This document shows, piece by piece, positions 16,349 through 23,772 of a DNA stretch of 39,186 nt. The stretch spans positions 17,324 to 56,509 of the forward strand of contig JAUNVR010000010.1 of the NCBI GenBank assembly GCA_030537595.1. Direction: 5' to 3'. The notes beneath the pieces are model-generated. The model saw only the letters and a program-made list of their open reading frames with translations, made no database searches and was not told the origin of the DNA. The stretch comes from Eubacteriales bacterium (GTDB taxonomy: Bacteria; Bacillota; Clostridia; Saccharofermentanales; DTU023). Position numbers and translations under genes: made by a program. Each line of letters begins with the position of its first letter. Position 1 is the first letter of the stretch.

Positions 16349-18007
16349 ATGTCCACGAAGAAGAAAGATCAAGAACTATGGAAGGCCGAACAGCTTAGGC
16401 AAGAGCGAAAAGAGCGTCTGGAGAGCCAGCGCACACGCTCCGGTGGTAAAAAGCCAGTACGTCAGAAAATTAAATTGGCGAACATTGCCCTGATTGTAGT
16501 CCTTTTATTTATCATTGGCGGTCTCATCCTGAATACTCTGATGAGCAGGGGTTATCGTGAGCGTCACGTGACGGCCTTAGAGATTGCAGGCGAGAAGATT
16601 CCCGCAAATGTGGTGAATTTCTATGCCTCATTGAGTGGCCAGCTCTTTACCCAGGATTTCCCGCAAGGACTTTTCGCGCCGGATGCAAAGGCCAATCTGG
16701 CCAAGCCTAGCCCGCTAAGAGACGGTAGTGAATATGATCAGGACCGGAACCTTAGGGACGATGTTCTGATGTATGCCAAGCAGCAGTTGCTGACCGATGT
16801 CGTGACCTTAAAAGAGGCTGAGAAGAATGGCTTTAAAGACTCGGGCGATGGTCTAGAGGCAGCTGAGGGCATTCTCCAACAGTTGACCACAGCCGCAGCC
16901 CAAAGTGGCAGCCCACTGCGCTTGATTTTGGAGAGCCAGTACGGCCCAGGTAATAATCGCGACACTGTAAAGGAATTAGTCCATAATTTTATCCGCGCAG
17001 AGGAATATCGCGAGCATCTTAGAAAAAGCTTCGAACCTTCTGTCGAAGAGATGGAAAAAGCCTATGCCGAGAATCCCGAAAAATATGACGAGGCAAAATT
17101 TAGGGTAGTTCAATTCCTGCCCACAGAAGCTGATTATCATGACTTCACTTCGGGCGAAGTGCTTGAAGCTGCTGAGACAGAAAGCAAGTCTGAGACTGCT
17201 GAAGATGAGTCCGAAGAGCAGGCGGAAAAAGAAGAAAATAAAGAGCCAGAGCATAGTCCAGAAGAACTTTTGGAAAATGCGAAGCAAAGAGCTGCTGAGA
17301 TGCAAACTAAGGTTAAGAGCGAAGAAGACTTCGTCAAATACCAGAAAAGCTATGCAAATCCACAGCAGCGCGAGAATCTGGAAGCCAATCCCGATAGCAG
17401 CATACAGCGCGCAATGAAGGCTAATCTGAGCAAAGAAATTGCTGATTTCCTCTTTGCGGATGAGCGCAAAGCCGGCGATATGGATGTTCTCGAGAGCAAT
17501 GGTTCAGCTTGGTTAATTTATTTCCTCGAGCGTGGCCGGAATGAAGAGCATAGTTACGATGCTCGTCATATTTTCTTTGAAGTCCCGGAAAATGCTGATG
17601 CAGAGGAAGAAGCTAAGATTAAAGAGCAGGCAGAGAAGGTACTTGCCGAATATGAGGCAGGTGAAAAGAGTGAAGAGCGCTTTGCTGAATTAGTGAGTAA
17701 GTATTCACAAGACCAAGGTAGTGTTGATAATGGTGGGCTGTATCAGAATGTCCAGCCCGGCCGTTTCGTTGATGAGTTTGAAGACTTCGTCTTTACCCCG
17801 GGCCGTAAAGCCGGCGATGTAGGGCTAGTCAGAAGCTCAATTGGTTATCACATTATTTACTTTGAACGCTTAAATGAAGAGATTTGGCAGAGTAGTATGA
17901 AGTCCGAACTTGCATATGAGGGTCTAAGCTCATGGTTGCAGAAAGCGACAGATGGTGTTGTGCCCGTTGAAGAAAAAGGCATGAAATATGTCTTGCCTTT
18001 AAAGTAA
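16349..18007 (+). CDS. Membrane-anchored parvulin-type peptidyl-prolyl isomerase (PrsA/SurA-like foldase)
   Basis: The 552-residue protein has a strongly basic N-terminus (1-42), one membrane helix (43-65) and a large extracytoplasmic part, so it is probably a type II anchored foldase. Residues 75-245 are a helical chaperone-like region starting ALEIAGEKIPANVVNFYASL. Residues 403-510 are a parvulin domain (DARHIFFEV, GGLYQNVQPGRFVDEFEDF, SSIGYHIIYF) catalysing proline isomerisation in exported proteins. Residues 248-397 resemble a degenerate first parvulin domain (GDMDVLESNGSAWLIYFLERGR), interrupted by a very acidic insert (about 273-305). The product is a full-length paralogue of the next gene, 36 nt downstream; both end in G-[ML]-K-Y-V-L-P-L. 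The ATG has AAAAGGTG upstream. Unlike PrsA it has no lipobox. Confidence 0.88.
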   Translation: MSTKKKDQELWKAEQLRQERKERLESQRTRSGGKKPVRQKIKLANIALIVVLLFIIGGLILNTLMSRGYRERHVTALEIAGEKIPANVVNFYASLSGQLFTQDFPQGLFAPDAKANLAKPSPLRDGSEYDQDRNLRDDVLMYAKQQLLTDVVTLKEAEKNGFKDSGDGLEAAEGILQQLTTAAAQSGSPLRLILESQYGPGNNRDTVKELVHNFIRAEEYREHLRKSFEPSVEEMEKAYAENPEKYDEAKFRVVQFLPTEADYHDFTSGEVLEAAETESKSETAEDESEEQAEKEENKEPEHSPEELLENAKQRAAEMQTKVKSEEDFVKYQKSYANPQQRENLEANPDSSIQRAMKANLSKEIADFLFADERKAGDMDVLESNGSAWLIYFLERGRNEEHSYDARHIFFEVPENADAEEEAKIKEQAEKVLAEYEAGEKSEERFAELVSKYSQDQGSVDNGGLYQNVQPGRFVDEFEDFVFTPGRKAGDVGLVRSSIGYHIIYFERLNEEIWQSSMKSELAYEGLSSWLQKATDGVVPVEEKGMKYVLPLK

Positions 18008-18043
18008 AGCAAGCTCAGTCTACGGACTGAAATCGGAGGAAAA

Positions 18044-19717
18044 ATGAAATATTTTAAAAAGAGTCTGGCTCTAGTTTTAGCCTTAACCCTAATCTTTGGC
18101 CTAGTTGCCTGTAGTCAAGATACGGCAAAAAAAGCCAAGCCCGAGGAAGCAGAAGCTGCTCCTCAAGCGGATGCTGAGCTTCCCGCAGATCAAGAAGCGG
18201 CGCCCAATCTGGATTTACAAGCCGCAGAGGCCGAGGAAGCGCGCGCCGAATTCGAGCAGAATTTAGCCGAGCTGGTCGAGGCAGGGCAAGCTTACATAAA
18301 TGAGCCAGCGATCAAAATTGATGGCGAAGAAGTACCCGTCCACGTGCTTAATTTCTATGCTTCCTTAGCATCGAAAATGGTCAATCAGGCCTTCCAAACT
18401 GGCCCCTTTGCAATTGAAAATAGGGCCCTGCTTGAATTAGCTAGCCCAGAAGATGAGGCAAAAACTCAGCGGGATGCCATTATTGAATTGGCCGAGCAGC
18501 AGATTAAGATGGACTATGTCAGTCGCAAGGCTGCAGAAAAAGCCGACTTTAAAGCTCCTGAGGACGGCAGCCAGCTGGCAGCTGAAGTTGTCGGACAACT
18601 CCTAGGCTTTGCAAGTCAAAGTGGTATGGATGCTGATCAGGTGCTGACTCTCTACTATGGTTGGGGCAATGACAGCGAAGGCTTAAGCAAGTTAATTGCT
18701 GAATACTTCGAAGCTGAGCAGTACAGAGACTTTATCACCCGTCAACAGGAAGTCAGCGATGCTGAGATTAAAAAAGAATTCAAAGATAATCAGGATAAAT
18801 ATGAAGTAATTAAATTCCGAGTGATGAACTTTACACCGGATGCTTCAGAATTCATGGATGAGGCTGCACTAGCTGAATTGGCTAAGGCAGATGAGTACAG
18901 CGAGGAGCTCGACAAGAAGGCTGCAGCTGATTTAACTGTGGAGCGGAGCGAGGAAGAGCTAAAGGCTAACACCGCTGACCGCGCCGCTGCGATGCAAGAG
19001 CGGATCAAGACTGAAGACGACTTTGTCCGCTTACAGTCAGTTTATGCCCCACCGCAGATTAGAGCACAGATTCATGAGCATCCTGAAATTACTCTACAAA
19101 AGATGAGAGCAAGTCAGCTCCCTGAAGAGATGAAGTCATTCCTCAGCGACGAAAAGCGTAGAGATGGTGATACCGAAGTGATTGAAACTCCCTTTGGCAC
19201 CTGGGTTGTGTACTTCATCGAGAAGGGCCGCGATGAGAGCCGAGCCTTTACGACCCGGCACATCCTAGTTCAACCTGAAGATCCGAGCGAAGATTCCGCC
19301 TGGGACGAGGCTAAGGCCAAGGCTGAAAGCATCCTCGACGAATATCTCAAGGGCGAGCAGAGCGAAGATGATTTTGCTAAGCTGGCCAACGAGCACAGTG
19401 AAGATCCCGGTAATCAAGGCAAGAATGGCGGCCTCTATGAGGCAATTGATGCCGGTAAATTCGTCAAAGAGTACGAGGCCTGGGCTCTGGATAAGAAACG
19501 TGAGTCGGGCGATGTTGAAATTGTTAAAACTGAGCACGGCTATCATCTGATTTACTTTATCGGCTTAGAAGATCCGCTCTGGATTAGAGAGTGCCGGCAA
19601 AGCCTAGCACTGGCCAGAACTAAGGATTGGCTGGATCAGGAAATGGAGAAGGTCGAGCTCGAAGAATTAGATGGTCTGAAATATGTTCTGCCACTCGATG
19701 GAGTTTTAAGTAAATAA
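18044..19717 (+). CDS. Parvulin-type peptidyl-prolyl isomerase lipoprotein (PrsA-like)
   Basis: This 557-residue PrsA-like foldase carries a lipoprotein signal: MKYFKKS, a hydrophobic core and lipobox GLVAC, giving lipidated Cys23. An Ala/Glu-rich spacer (about 28-80) leads to a helical chaperone region (VPVHVLNFYASLASKM). A degenerate parvulin-like segment (about 254-395, ending GTWVVYFIEKGRDES) precedes a complete parvulin domain (401-509; FTTRHILVQ, GGLYEAIDAGKFVKEYEAW, EHGYHLIYFIG). It should help secreted proteins fold outside the membrane. It lies 36 nt after its membrane-helix-anchored paralogue with a good GGAGG site, so the pair is probably an operon from a tandem duplication. A large palindrome follows, and then the rpoB promoter. 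Confidence 0.9.
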   Translation: MKYFKKSLALVLALTLIFGLVACSQDTAKKAKPEEAEAAPQADAELPADQEAAPNLDLQAAEAEEARAEFEQNLAELVEAGQAYINEPAIKIDGEEVPVHVLNFYASLASKMVNQAFQTGPFAIENRALLELASPEDEAKTQRDAIIELAEQQIKMDYVSRKAAEKADFKAPEDGSQLAAEVVGQLLGFASQSGMDADQVLTLYYGWGNDSEGLSKLIAEYFEAEQYRDFITRQQEVSDAEIKKEFKDNQDKYEVIKFRVMNFTPDASEFMDEAALAELAKADEYSEELDKKAAADLTVERSEEELKANTADRAAAMQERIKTEDDFVRLQSVYAPPQIRAQIHEHPEITLQKMRASQLPEEMKSFLSDEKRRDGDTEVIETPFGTWVVYFIEKGRDESRAFTTRHILVQPEDPSEDSAWDEAKAKAESILDEYLKGEQSEDDFAKLANEHSEDPGNQGKNGGLYEAIDAGKFVKEYEAWALDKKRESGDVEIVKTEHGYHLIYFIGLEDPLWIRECRQSLALARTKDWLDQEMEKVELEELDGLKYVLPLDGVLSK

Positions 19718-19775: not shown

Positions 19776-19820
19776 AATTAAGATGCCCTCTGCGGAATTC
19801 CGCAGAGGGCAAAATTAAGA
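19776..19820 (+). repeat. 28-bp perfect palindrome flanked by 8-bp direct repeats
   Basis: Positions 19784-19811 are a perfect palindrome: left arm TGCCCTCTGCGGAA, right arm its exact complement, with an EcoRI-like GAATTC at the centre. It is bracketed by identical AATTAAGA copies at 19776-19783 and 19813-19820. No T-run follows, so it is not a standard terminator, although it lies where one is expected, 66 nt after the foldase stop and 10 nt before the rpoB -35. It may be a terminator variant, an operator, or a small inserted palindromic element with a target duplication. Confidence 0.6.
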
Positions 19821-19821
19821 C

Positions 19822-19849
19822 TTGACACAGTTGTGCCAAAACTGATAAC
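19822..19849 (+). promoter_or_regulatory. Candidate rpoB promoter
   Basis: A perfect TTGACA (19822-19827) is followed after 16 nt by GATAAC (19844-19849), a weak -10. This predicts a start near 19856 and a leader of about 160 nt before rpoB. Confidence 0.6.
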
Positions 19850-19877
19850 ATTCATAAATGCGTCAATATCTGAAAAC

Positions 19878-19978
19878 AGGGCAAAATCGCCCTAAAAATT
19901 GATGCCGAATAAGCAGCAAGTACGCTGTAATTATAACAGCAAAAGCTGTACCGTCAATAGTCTTCAGATTGACGGTAC
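19878..19978 (+). promoter_or_regulatory. Structured rpoB leader with competing hairpins
   Basis: The leader contains AGGGC (19878-19882)/GCCCT (19889-19893), GCTGT (19924-19928)/ACAGC (19936-19940), an alternative ACAGC/GCTGT (19945-19949) pairing, and an 11-bp stem GTACCGTCAAT (19948-19958)/ATTGACGGTAC (19968-19978). The second and third pairings share ACAGC, and the third also overlaps the 11-bp stem, so they exclude each other. No terminator T-run is seen. It does not lie before rplJ, where the known L10 leader occurs. A regulatory role is an inference. Confidence 0.5.
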
Positions 19979-20016
19979 CTAGGGCGCATAGCGTCGTAAA
20001 CGTGAGGTGATCATTG

Positions 20017-23000
20017 ATGGTAAAACCCGTTCAATACGGCCGCAGTGAGAGAATGTCGTATTCGAAGATCGAGGAAGTTCTAGATATTCCCCATTTGATG
20101 GAAATTCAAAAAGCTAGCTACAAGTGGTTCCTGGATGAAGGACTAATGGAGGCTCTCCATGATATGTCACCAATCCGGGATTTTTCCGGGGATATAGAAC
20201 TTTCTTTTTTGGAAAAAGAATTCGATATCGAGAATCCGACCTATTCCATAGCTGAGTGCAAGGAACGTGACACAAACTATGCCGCACCCTTACGCGTCAA
20301 AGTTCGCTTGCACAACAAGCGCGATGATGTAGTTAAGGAACAACTTATCTATATCGGTGAGTTCCCCATCATGACAGAAACGGGAACTTTTATTATCAAC
20401 GGAGCTGAGCGAGCTGTAATTTCACAGTTAGTCCGCTCTCCTGGTGCTTACTTTGACCATGATAGGGATAAGAATAATAACCTGGTCTACAGTGGCCAGA
20501 TTATTCCTAACCGCGGTGCCTGGCTAGAATATGAAACTGATGGTAACGGCCTCTTGTGGGTGCGAATTGATCGGAATCGTAAATTCCACCTGAGCATTTT
20601 CCTCAGAGCTTTGGGCTTTGGCGAAAATGATGAGATTATTGAGCTTCTAGGTGAGGAGCAGCGCCTTTTGGAGACTCTCGAAAAGGATGGCTGCCGGAAT
20701 ACTGATGACGGCCTCCAGGAGCTTTTCCGCAAGTTGCGCCCCGGTGAGGTCTACACCTCCGAAGGTGCAAAAAACTATCTGAACAATCTCTTCTTTGAAG
20801 CTAATCGTTACGATTTGGCTCATGTTGGTATTTATAAACTTAACAAAAAGCTCTCCCTGGCACGACGCCTGATTGGCCACATGGCAGCAGAGCACATTGT
20901 TGATGACTTTGGTGAGATTATCTTGGCCGAAGGTGAGATTATTACCCGCGACAAGGCTTACGAAATTCAAAATGCCGGTCTGAACGCAGTTAAGGTCTAT
21001 CCGATGATTTTAATCGGTGACCAGGTGCAAAAAGGCGAAGAGGCAATTAAGGTCGTAGGCAATAAGCGTGTTTCTCTCCTGCCTTGGTTAGAGCGCCAAT
21101 TTTCAGAAAAAGAGCTGAAGAATTATGATTTCGCTGGCCTCAAGCTTGAAGAGCTGGTTTATCTGCCAGTTTTACAAGAATTACTAGAGCAGGCTAAAGA
21201 GAGCGACAATCCGCTCGAGGCTTTCTATCGTTTGCTCGGCCAGAGCAAGTCTTACTTGCTGCCGCGTCACCTCACAGTGGACGATATTATTGCTTCAATC
21301 AGCTACTTTATTGGCATCGATCATGGGATTGGTCATATCGACGATATCGACCACCTAGGTAACCGCCGGATCCGTTCGGTTGGTGAACTGATGCAGAATG
21401 CAGTCCGGACTGGCTTTGCCCGGATGGAAAGAACAGTGCGCGAGCGGATGCAGTCAACAGATATGGCGACTGCCACCCCGCAGCAGATTATTAATACCAG
21501 GCCAGTTTCAGCAGCGATCAAGGAGTTTTTCGGATCCTCACAGCTTTCGCAGTTCTTGGATCAACCGAACCCCCTGGCTGAGCTGACCCATAAACGTCGT
21601 CTCTCGGCACTCGGACCTGGTGGTCTCTCACGTGAGCGCGCGAACTTTGAAGTGCGTGACGTCCACGCATCACACTACGGCAGAATGTGTCCGATTGAAA
21701 CACCAGAAGGACCGAACATCGGCCTGATTGTCTCTTTGGCAACTTATGCCAGGGTCAATCGCTACGGCTTTATCGAAACTCCGTACCGAGTTTACGATAA
21801 GGAAAAAGGCGTTGTGACCGATGAGATTCGCTACATGACCGCGGACGAAGAGGACTACTTCTACATCGCCCAGGCTAATGAGCCGCTGGATGAGAATGGT
21901 AAGTTTATGAATAAGCGTATCGTCTGCCGCTACATCGACCAATTCGTCGAGATGGAACCGGCAGAGGTCGACCTCATGGACGTTTCGCCGAAGCAGTTAG
22001 TTTCAGTAGCCACGGCTCTGATTCCCTTCCTCGGTAATGACGACGCATCACGTGCCCTCATGGGTTCGAACATGCAGCGTCAGGCAGTTCCGGTCATTCG
22101 TCCGGAAGCCCCAATTATTGGGACTGGGATGGAATATCGCGTGGCCAAAGACTCCGGTACCTGCGAAGTCGCAAAGCGTGATGGTGTAGTCAAGTATGTC
22201 TCAGCTGACGAAATTATCGTCGAAGCAGGCAAGGATGAGTACGACCACTATAAATTGACTAAGTACCGCCGCTCGAACCAGGGTACCTGTGACAATCAGC
22301 GTCCTCTGGTCCGCGCCGGAGAAGAAGTCAAGGCCGGTGACATCATTGCAGATGGTCCGTCCACCGATAACGGTGAGCTGGCTCTCGGCCGTAACGTCCT
22401 GATTGGCTTCATGACCTGGGAAGGTTACAACTACGAAGACGCTGTCCTGATTAGTGAGCGCCTCGTTAAAGATGACGTATATACCTCAATTCATATTGAA
22501 GAATACGAGTGTGAAGCTCGTGATACCAAGCTGGGTCCGGAAGAAATCACCCGTGAAATTCCGAACGTCAGCGACGATATGCTAAAGGACTTAGACGAAA
22601 ACGGAATTATCCGAATTGGTGCTGAAGTCAATGCCGGCGATATTCTGGTTGGTAAGATTTCACCTAAGGGTGAAACCGAGCTGACTCCTGAGGAGCGCCT
22701 CTATCGGGCAATCTTTGGTGAGAAGATTCGTGAGGTTCGTGATACCTCAACCAGAGTTCCCCACGGTGAGTCCGGAATCGTAGTTGAAGTCCGCGAATTC
22801 ACCCGCGAGCAGGGCGACGAGCTGAAGCACGGTGTAACCCGTCTAGTTCGCGTCTATGTAGCCAAGAAACATAAAATTTCAGTCGGTGACAAGATGGCTG
22901 GGCGCCACGGTAACAAGGGTGTTATCTCCCGTGTTCTGCCTGAAGAGGATATGCCCTTCATGCCAGATGGAACACCGCTAGATATCGTACTCAATCCCCT

Positions 23001-23772
23001 GGGCGTACCCTCACGTATGAACCTGGGACAGCTGCTTGAAGTCCACCTCGGTCTAGCTGCGAAGAAGCTCGGCTGGAAGATTGCCACCCCGGTCTTTGAC
23101 GGAGCGACGGAAGAGAATATCTCCGAGGCCTTTGCCTTAGCCGGGATGGATCCTGATGGAAAGACCGTGCTTTACGATGGGCGGACCGGTGAGCCATTCG
23201 AGAACCGAGTTACAGTCGGTATCATGTACTATCTGAAGCTAATTCACTTAGTCGATGATAAGATCCACGCCCGTTCGATTGGTCCTTACTCCTTGGTTAC
23301 CCAGCAGCCTCTGGGTGGTAAAGCTCAGTTCGGTGGTCAGCGCTTTGGTGAGATGGAAGTTTGGGCTCTGGAAGCTTACGGTGCCTCGAATACCTTGCAG
23401 GAAGTCCTGACAGTTAAATCCGACGACATCAAGGGTAGAACCAGAACCTACGAGGCCATCGTCAAGGGTGAGAACATCCCCGAGCCGGGTGTTCCTGAGG
23501 CCTTCCGCGTCCTGGTTAAGGAACTGCAATCTTTGGCCCTGAATGTCGACATCTACGAAGATGACGAGAAAATCCCTGATGTGCAGAAGCGTCTGGAGGA
23601 AAGCGAAGTCGAGTCAGCTATTGATGCGGATAAGATTGAGTCTGAAACCTTCAGTGACTTCTTCGATGAGGGGGCGGCCGGAGCCTTTGAAGCGGCTGGC
23701 TTCAGTACTGAGAATGCGGACGGCGAAAAAGTCACGGCAGCAACAGCAGATGATTCTGCAGACGCAGAATAG
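20017..23772 (+). CDS. rpoB: DNA-directed RNA polymerase subunit beta
   Basis: This is the 1251-residue beta subunit of RNA polymerase, forming one side of the active-site cleft. The rifampicin-binding segment is complete ([14 protein letters not shown] then [14 protein letters not shown], nt about 21529-21635). The [12 protein letters not shown] segment is near nt 22890, and [20 protein letters not shown] near nt 23316-23375. The C-terminal tail is acidic (about the last 45 residues). A TTG precedes the ATG at 20017; the ATG fits the GAGGTGA site better (6 nt spacing) and is chosen. Usually rplJ-rplL comes just before rpoB; here it follows a parvulin pair, with its own promoter and leader. 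rpoC starts 17 nt downstream. Confidence 0.98.

Follow-up and report, generated by a model that had tools for sequence, protein, structure and literature searches.

The rpoB leader of the genome studied here carries a promoter on the opposite strand, facing the promoter of rpoB itself. The same promoter recurs in many rpoB leaders of the order (Saccharofermentanales, class Clostridia). Its letters are conserved there, it is independent of the gene upstream, it stands at a narrow range of distances from the rpoB start site, and it is coupled to a predicted terminator with compensatory changes. Comparison of these leaders indicates that the antisense RNA gene opposing rpoB is very probably a functional transcription unit. 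With less assurance, it is probable that this convergent unit of ~110 nt lowers rpoBC expression in cis, by interference, antisense pairing or both. We infer from the same features that the unit is transcribed, that its effect is negative, and how that effect is divided between interference and RNA pairing. No report of an antisense promoter or antisense RNA at rpoB was found in open-licence PMC full texts, and nothing was found in that literature on rpoBC autoregulation of this design.

The window is the whole stretch of DNA that was analysed (39,186 nucleotides). The features around the rpoB leader are:

18044-19717, plus strand: PpiC-type peptidyl-prolyl isomerase gene, upstream of rpoB and on the same strand
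19784-19811, minus strand: candidate antisense terminator 2, a GC-rich hairpin of 12 bp; tail at 19783-19774 with a weak U-tract
19811-19923, minus strand: predicted antisense RNA, deduced from promoter and terminators
19821-19840, minus strand: candidate antisense terminator 1, TTTGGCACAACTGTGTCAAG; U-rich tail at 19820-19811; the stem holds the complement of the rpoB -35 box
19822-19851, plus strand: rpoB sense promoter, TTGACA-18-TAACAT with TG before the -10 box; predicted start site about 19858
19860-19905, plus strand: 5' hairpin of the sense leader (19860-19867 with 19898-19905, inner AGGGC/GCCCT); predicted probability of the outer helix about 0.4
19924-19949, plus strand: alternative pairings ACAGC/GCTGT of an earlier note; no conserved switch
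19930-19957, minus strand: antisense promoter TTGACG-N16-TATAAT with extended -10, found by promoter scan and conserved in the order
19948-19978, plus strand: 11-bp stem of the earlier note, in the sense leader and covering the antisense -35 box
20014-23772, plus strand: rpoB, starting at TTG 20014 or ATG 20017; named from its protein, which matched rpoB relatives

The antisense promoter is of the sigma-A type, with 11 of 12 hexamer matches plus a TG element. It consists of a -35 box (TTGACG, 19957-19952), the TG (19938-19937) and a -10 box (TATAAT, 19935-19930) with a spacer of 16; counted from the rpoB start site, it spans about +73 to +100. Two features count against an antisense unit: the sixth base of the -35 box is usually other than A, and the spacer of 16 is one base short of 17. 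In the whole genome of 1,546,611 bases, the pattern TTGACN(13-16)TGNTATAAT has a single exact match, which is the element in the rpoB leader. Matches are near chance when two mismatches are allowed (63, against 51 for the control).

Relatives also have an equivalent rpoB sense promoter. In their leaders the letters of the antisense promoter recur at the same place, while the surroundings vary. The conservation profile was made from 46 rows thinned to 37; the way these rows were selected dictates its -10 and -35 columns but has no bearing on the TG columns. On the sense strand the TG pair reads C in 35 of 37 rows and A in all 37; the flanks average 0.26 bit, and the base between TG and the -10 box is free. 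Among the matches listed for 59 relatives, the spacer-16 pattern occurs 89 times, 34 times at the rpoB leader; a backward control pattern occurs once (counted by hand). Nineteen of the 55 matches away from rpoB were fetched. All of them aim at the next gene (18 clearly, one across a gap of 340 nt), and the pattern therefore detects real promoters. The genes behind them include those for RecA, NusA with RimP, SecE/NusG, IleS, FeoA, an ABC transporter, MurT, AmtB and a tRNA; these names were read from protein starts, without a family search. The match in the rpoB leader is a recurrent exception, oriented the wrong way.

Of the 90 distinct rpoB leaders collected from the order, 43 contain the exact element; with spacers of 14-18 allowed, it occurs in one of 8,900 shuffles. 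Three further leaders have a shifted TG or one altered base in the -10 box, bringing the total to 46. The spacer is 16 in every order leader bearing the element. These 90 leaders, some of them shortened by contig ends, comprise 50 from earlier sets of relatives and 40 more; the latter were drawn from 80 loci, of which 3 starting inside rpoB and 37 with duplicate leaders were left out. An added set from the order contained seven loci already in the sample, two g28 loci lacking the promoter (also already sampled), two loci cut off inside the gene, and one new locus, G178, which has the promoter and no terminator by the criteria used. The element is present in genera g1-g6 and most of family f3. 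It is missing from g7, a genus of the window's own family, and from g28, a genus of f3; families f2 and f4 lack it too, as does a set of mostly rumen MAGs. The absences from g7, g28, f2 and f4 show that it is nonessential.

A weaker form is found in the class. The class sample holds 108 rpoB leaders, five from f2 of the order and the rest from elsewhere in the class; it was built from 105 of 109 matching genomes (four with little upstream DNA were left out) and three f2 genomes, with the window's own genome and G039 set aside. A sense promoter is present by the rule used in 102. In 21 of these, the antisense strand carries TTG-N17-TGNTATnnT, always with an effective spacer of 17; this form thus has another -35 box and a longer spacer than the 16 of the order. 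Antisense-strand scores in the class depart from those of shuffles (KS p 4e-9; 29% below 0.05; n = 96), and two controls show no departure. The exact spacer-16 pattern with GAGGTG is found in 7 of 391 genomes of the class, and by reading only the window's own match is at rpoB. Outside the class, 40 of 103 rpoB leaders from other classes of the phylum were fetched; the 36 with a sense promoter gave no strict match and no enrichment (KS p 0.78). Single strong-looking antisense promoters do occur there, for example in L340. The tests ignore the kinship of the sequences.

Promoter noise was considered as an explanation and rejected. The same-strand control was negative in all 102 class leaders and all 83 order leaders, and upstream of the promoter the antisense strand matched in 5 of the 102 and in none of the 83; this control uses the spacer setting of the class form, which catches only 1 of 83 order leaders. 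A second gene, ctsR, was used as a further control. Its start was found in 22 of 30 loci, none of them with a sense promoter by the rule, and strict antisense matches were 0 of 22. A recurring TTGAC-TTTGAC repeat, which we take to be CtsR operators, mimics -35 boxes at these loci, and ctsR proved unusable as a control.

Of 101 class leaders, 28 share a conserved initially transcribed motif, TG[CT][AG][TC][TCA]A, that begins exactly 7 nt past the sense -10 box (19858-19868 in the window); 26 of 83 order leaders have it there too. Anywhere in the first 22 nt, it is found in 35 class leaders (5.7 expected) and 26 order leaders (3.0 expected).

The predicted antisense RNA would be ~113 nt long if it ended at terminator 1 and about 148 nt, reaching about 19776, if it ended at terminator 2. 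Terminator 1 is weak in the window and its tail is U-poor; strong versions are found in f3. Terminator 2 may also serve the PpiC gene on the plus strand. Terminator-like hairpins downstream of the antisense start are more frequent than expected in both samples (in the order 12 of 39 loci against 4.5 expected, in the class 6 of 22 against 0.6). Most of those in the order are at one place and contain the complement of the rpoB -35 box. Such a terminator over the target promoter, the arrangement required for occlusion, is predicted in 23 of 40 order leaders with the antisense promoter (3.0 expected) and in none of 40 leaders without it (2.2 expected). The association has a Fisher p of 2.6e-9, with relatedness ignored. 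With flank shuffles as control, the terminator is found in 14 of 14 f3 leaders (1.1 expected) and 10 of 28 f1 leaders (2.2 expected). Prediction thus gives the antisense RNA a defined 3' end, strongly in f3 and more weakly in f1 and the window; 17 of the 40 promoter-bearing order leaders have no terminator by the criteria used. The outer stem of the 14 f3 hairpins varies in both arms, so that A-T, G-C, C-G and T-A pairs all occur at the same positions; the inner T-G (U-G) combinations can pair only on the antisense strand. Class leaders without the antisense promoter also have an excess of -35 terminators (8 of 77, against 1.8 expected), so the coupling of promoter and terminator is clear only within the order. 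Inverted repeats of 12-17 bp centred on the rpoB -35 box, like the f3 antisense terminators, were seen in L213, L204, L205 and L189 (families f14, f28 and f10).

The predicted start sites of the sense and antisense transcripts are 57-96 bp apart in the order (median 65, n = 40); in the class sample the median is 54.5 bp (n = 22). The two promoters are thus face to face and tens of bp apart, as in promoter interference. In the proposed mechanism, RNA polymerase holoenzyme would bind the near-consensus extended -10 promoter on the minus strand of the rpoB leader. Transcription would begin about 65 bp downstream of the rpoB start site, facing it, and the polymerase would run back first over the 5' part of the leader and then over the rpoB promoter. 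It would stop at the intrinsic terminator around rpoB's own -35 box, yielding an RNA of ~110 nt. Antisense open complexes and elongating polymerases would obstruct the sense promoter through sitting-duck interference, collision or occlusion, and the RNA may base-pair with ~60 nt at the start of the rpoB leader. A more speculative extension is that the unit senses polymerase supply: free holoenzyme would fire from or sit on the antisense promoter, polymerases would stop on the rpoB promoter, and rpoBC expression would fall as free polymerase rises.

Three known systems resemble this arrangement in part, as described in excerpts of the cited papers. In phage 186, pR reduces pL activity 5.6-fold, for the most part through sitting-duck interference; a synthetic convergent pair has been built with 65 bp between the +1 positions (PMC6593788). 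Convergent promoters in P2-like phages are 40-60 bp apart (PMC7498355). The rpoB unit shares this face-to-face layout, at about 65 bp (PMC7498355, PMC6593788). However, the phage promoter that loses is the lysogenic one and repressors decide the outcome, whereas the rpoB promoter makes RNA polymerase itself and has no known repressor site. Pause-enhanced occlusion at lambda PR/tR1/PRE is similar in that a terminator of one promoter holds polymerase over the opposing promoter; according to that 2019 paper, a second natural example had yet to be observed (PMC6593788). The lambda promoters are 320 bp apart, unlike those here, and the likeness at rpoB is in the predicted position of the terminator only (PMC6593788). 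The third system, and the nearest in kind among those studied, is ArrA, an antisense RNA to the dnaA 5' UTR of Bacillus subtilis. Its antisense sigma-A promoter also has a TATAAT box and a 16-bp spacer, and likewise lies inside a housekeeping leader facing the sense promoter. Both are conserved among relatives, ArrA in some 17 Bacillus species and the rpoB unit across an order (PMC12112137). Differences are that the target of ArrA is dnaA, not RNA polymerase, that its promoter is repressed by DnaA, that its transcripts are 270 and 667 nt long, and that a terminator inside the dnaA promoter is not described in the excerpts of that report (PMC12112137).

ArrA also speaks for an alternative, in which the antisense RNA itself acts by pairing with the 5' end of rpoB mRNA and destabilising or remodelling it, with negligible promoter interference. 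A discrete short RNA is predicted here, and ArrA, according to the excerpts, cuts both mRNA and protein. Its sense promoter is unaffected in vitro, which counts against the interference reading (PMC12112137); for that reason we hold action by pairing alone to be a possibility of some weight, albeit a doubtful one. Against it, the overlap of the predicted RNA with the leader is limited to the initial 60 nt or so, distant from the ribosome-binding site, and those ~60 nt are poorly conserved between genera; moreover, a terminator placed on the rpoB promoter itself fits interference. The same placement could be read the other way, as an aid to rpoB: polymerases that end on the rpoB promoter would remain attached to the DNA, turn round and start again at rpoB. 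According to two reports, E. coli RNA polymerase usually remains DNA-bound after intrinsic termination and can reinitiate nearby in either orientation (PMC6978322, PMC7957599). Strong convergent promoters usually inhibit one another, however, and such an aid seems unlikely. The antisense promoter might instead belong to a divergent upstream gene. In g3 and most g4 genomes the upstream neighbour is a MurT-like gene in the opposite orientation, and a MurT-like gene elsewhere in G007 carries a similar promoter. Yet the promoter is intact with either neighbour, the divergent MurT-like gene or a same-strand PpiC gene; the window's genus, g2, f3 and three of the g4 genomes all have their upstream gene on the rpoB strand, and the f3 transcript has its predicted end at the rpoB -35 box. 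These same-strand settings refute a divergent gene as the general explanation, which makes this reading quite unlikely, even a little more so than an aid to rpoB; in g3 and g4 it may hold additionally.

Two further readings place the signal on the sense strand, and both are very improbable. One takes the conserved letters for a motif of the sense strand, AUUAUAnCA-N14-GUCAA, which a protein would recognise in RNA or DNA and which would resemble a promoter by accident. Its GUCAA part is inside a sense hairpin in many leaders, and its spacing is unusually rigid within the order. However, the invariant letters are those of a sigma-A -35 box, -10 box and TG, N varies at just the position that extended -10 promoters leave free, other matches to the pattern in these genomes belong to ordinary promoters, and the class-wide version has a spacer of 17 and a different -35 box. 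The other is a switch of mutually exclusive hairpins, riboswitch-like or protein-binding, which the earlier note had proposed for 19878-20016. Its observations on the letters are exact: ACAGC (19936-19940) can pair with GCTGT at 19924-19928 or at 19945-19949, and the 11-bp stem (19948-19958 with 19968-19978) has two bases in common with the right-hand pairing. The 171-nt leader also folds better than shuffles (z = -3.2), and a sense hairpin of at least 7 bp crosses the antisense -35 box in 19 of 43 leaders (9.0 expected). In dinucleotide shuffles of 19878-20016, 1.8% contain a 5-mer flanked left and right, at no more than about 20 nt, by its complement. The left pairing has an ensemble probability of only about 0.05 because GCTGT at 19924-28 prefers GCAGC at 19913-17 (probability 0.90-0.95). 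The right pairing (0.57-0.93) can coexist with that hairpin, and no bistable switch is therefore predicted. In the sole congener (G001/L002), the rpoB segment of which is 80% identical to the window, ACAGC has become GCAGC and the left pairing survives with one G-U; the right GCTGT has become GCCAG, and the right pairing is lost. The 5' hairpin at 19860-19905 has a counterpart in G001 with changed letters.

The earlier note had also named a lack of compensatory base changes in relatives as the outcome that would speak against the switch. Covariation is scarce in the genus-level consensus, and no conserved alternative structure with compensatory changes was found in the sense leader, either in the congener, in five RNAalifold groups or in the ensemble. 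The outcome thus speaks against the switch; the compensatory changes that do exist are in the antisense terminator hairpin. A conserved sense RNA consensus was rejected on the RNAalifold results, in which the covariation terms of the five groups are -0.37 to 1.28 and compensatory pairs are few. A long-range pairing spotted by eye (CGCCCTA 19888-19894 with TAGGGCG 19980-19986) was likewise dropped, having a predicted probability of 0.001. Rfam gave no match in the window at gathering thresholds, and hence no L10 leader, riboswitch or ribosomal-protein leader family. ACAGC overlaps the complement of the antisense promoter's TG element, and the 11-bp stem overlaps the antisense -35 box. The conserved letters fit sigma-A promoter grammar on the opposite strand, which leaves the switch unsupported. 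The broader suggestion, that this rpoB has its own control element, fared better: rplJ-rplL are indeed not upstream, a PpiC-type foldase gene being the neighbour there, and a conserved element is present, in the form of the antisense promoter. It should be noted that the window has two neighbouring PpiC-type foldase genes upstream of rpoB (16349-19717), and that a PpiC-like gene ahead of rpoB recurs in relatives, the genes of which were judged by sequence only.

In E. coli, the supply of beta and beta' is controlled in the leader of rplJL-rpoBC, through the L10 leader and attenuation. The rpoB gene described here differs in having neither rplJL upstream nor an L10 leader match, and its control would follow another principle. 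To our knowledge, it is poorly understood how the amount of RNA polymerase is set in bacteria that lack the rplJL-rpoBC leader. The antisense unit suggests a testable answer, in which polymerase itself would be the only input. If the sensor reading is true, the enzyme would be its own repressor through promoter DNA, a direct autoregulation without a dedicated regulator, and the locus would be a second natural case of a terminator occluding an opposing promoter; the related, less rigid forms in Clostridia would make the device old. Antisense promoters are often dismissed as noise. The present case shows that they can stay letter-for-letter the same across an order, with a terminator woven into the sense promoter. 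A promoter, a terminator and compensatory changes that suit one strand can be considered a comparative signature for functional antisense RNAs in uncultured genomes.

Several leaders show other conserved features. Among those without the antisense promoter, L096-L119 (mostly rumen MAGs) and L287-L292 (f2) have in common a 5' hairpin that is strongly conserved (GCGTTACAATGGGTAGGGCAACTTTACCCATTTTGACG and variants) and could be a separate RNA control element. The g7 leaders (L012, L013, L019, L049 and L050), which also lack the antisense promoter, have a long conserved stretch in common after the start site, ACGTGTCACTAAGTCTGGAGGTGTG. In leaders of g3 and g4 (e.g. L016, L017 and L025), the word CCGGTT or CCGGT is found twice downstream of the antisense promoter, one time ahead of the ribosome-binding site; these repeats could form alternative pairings.
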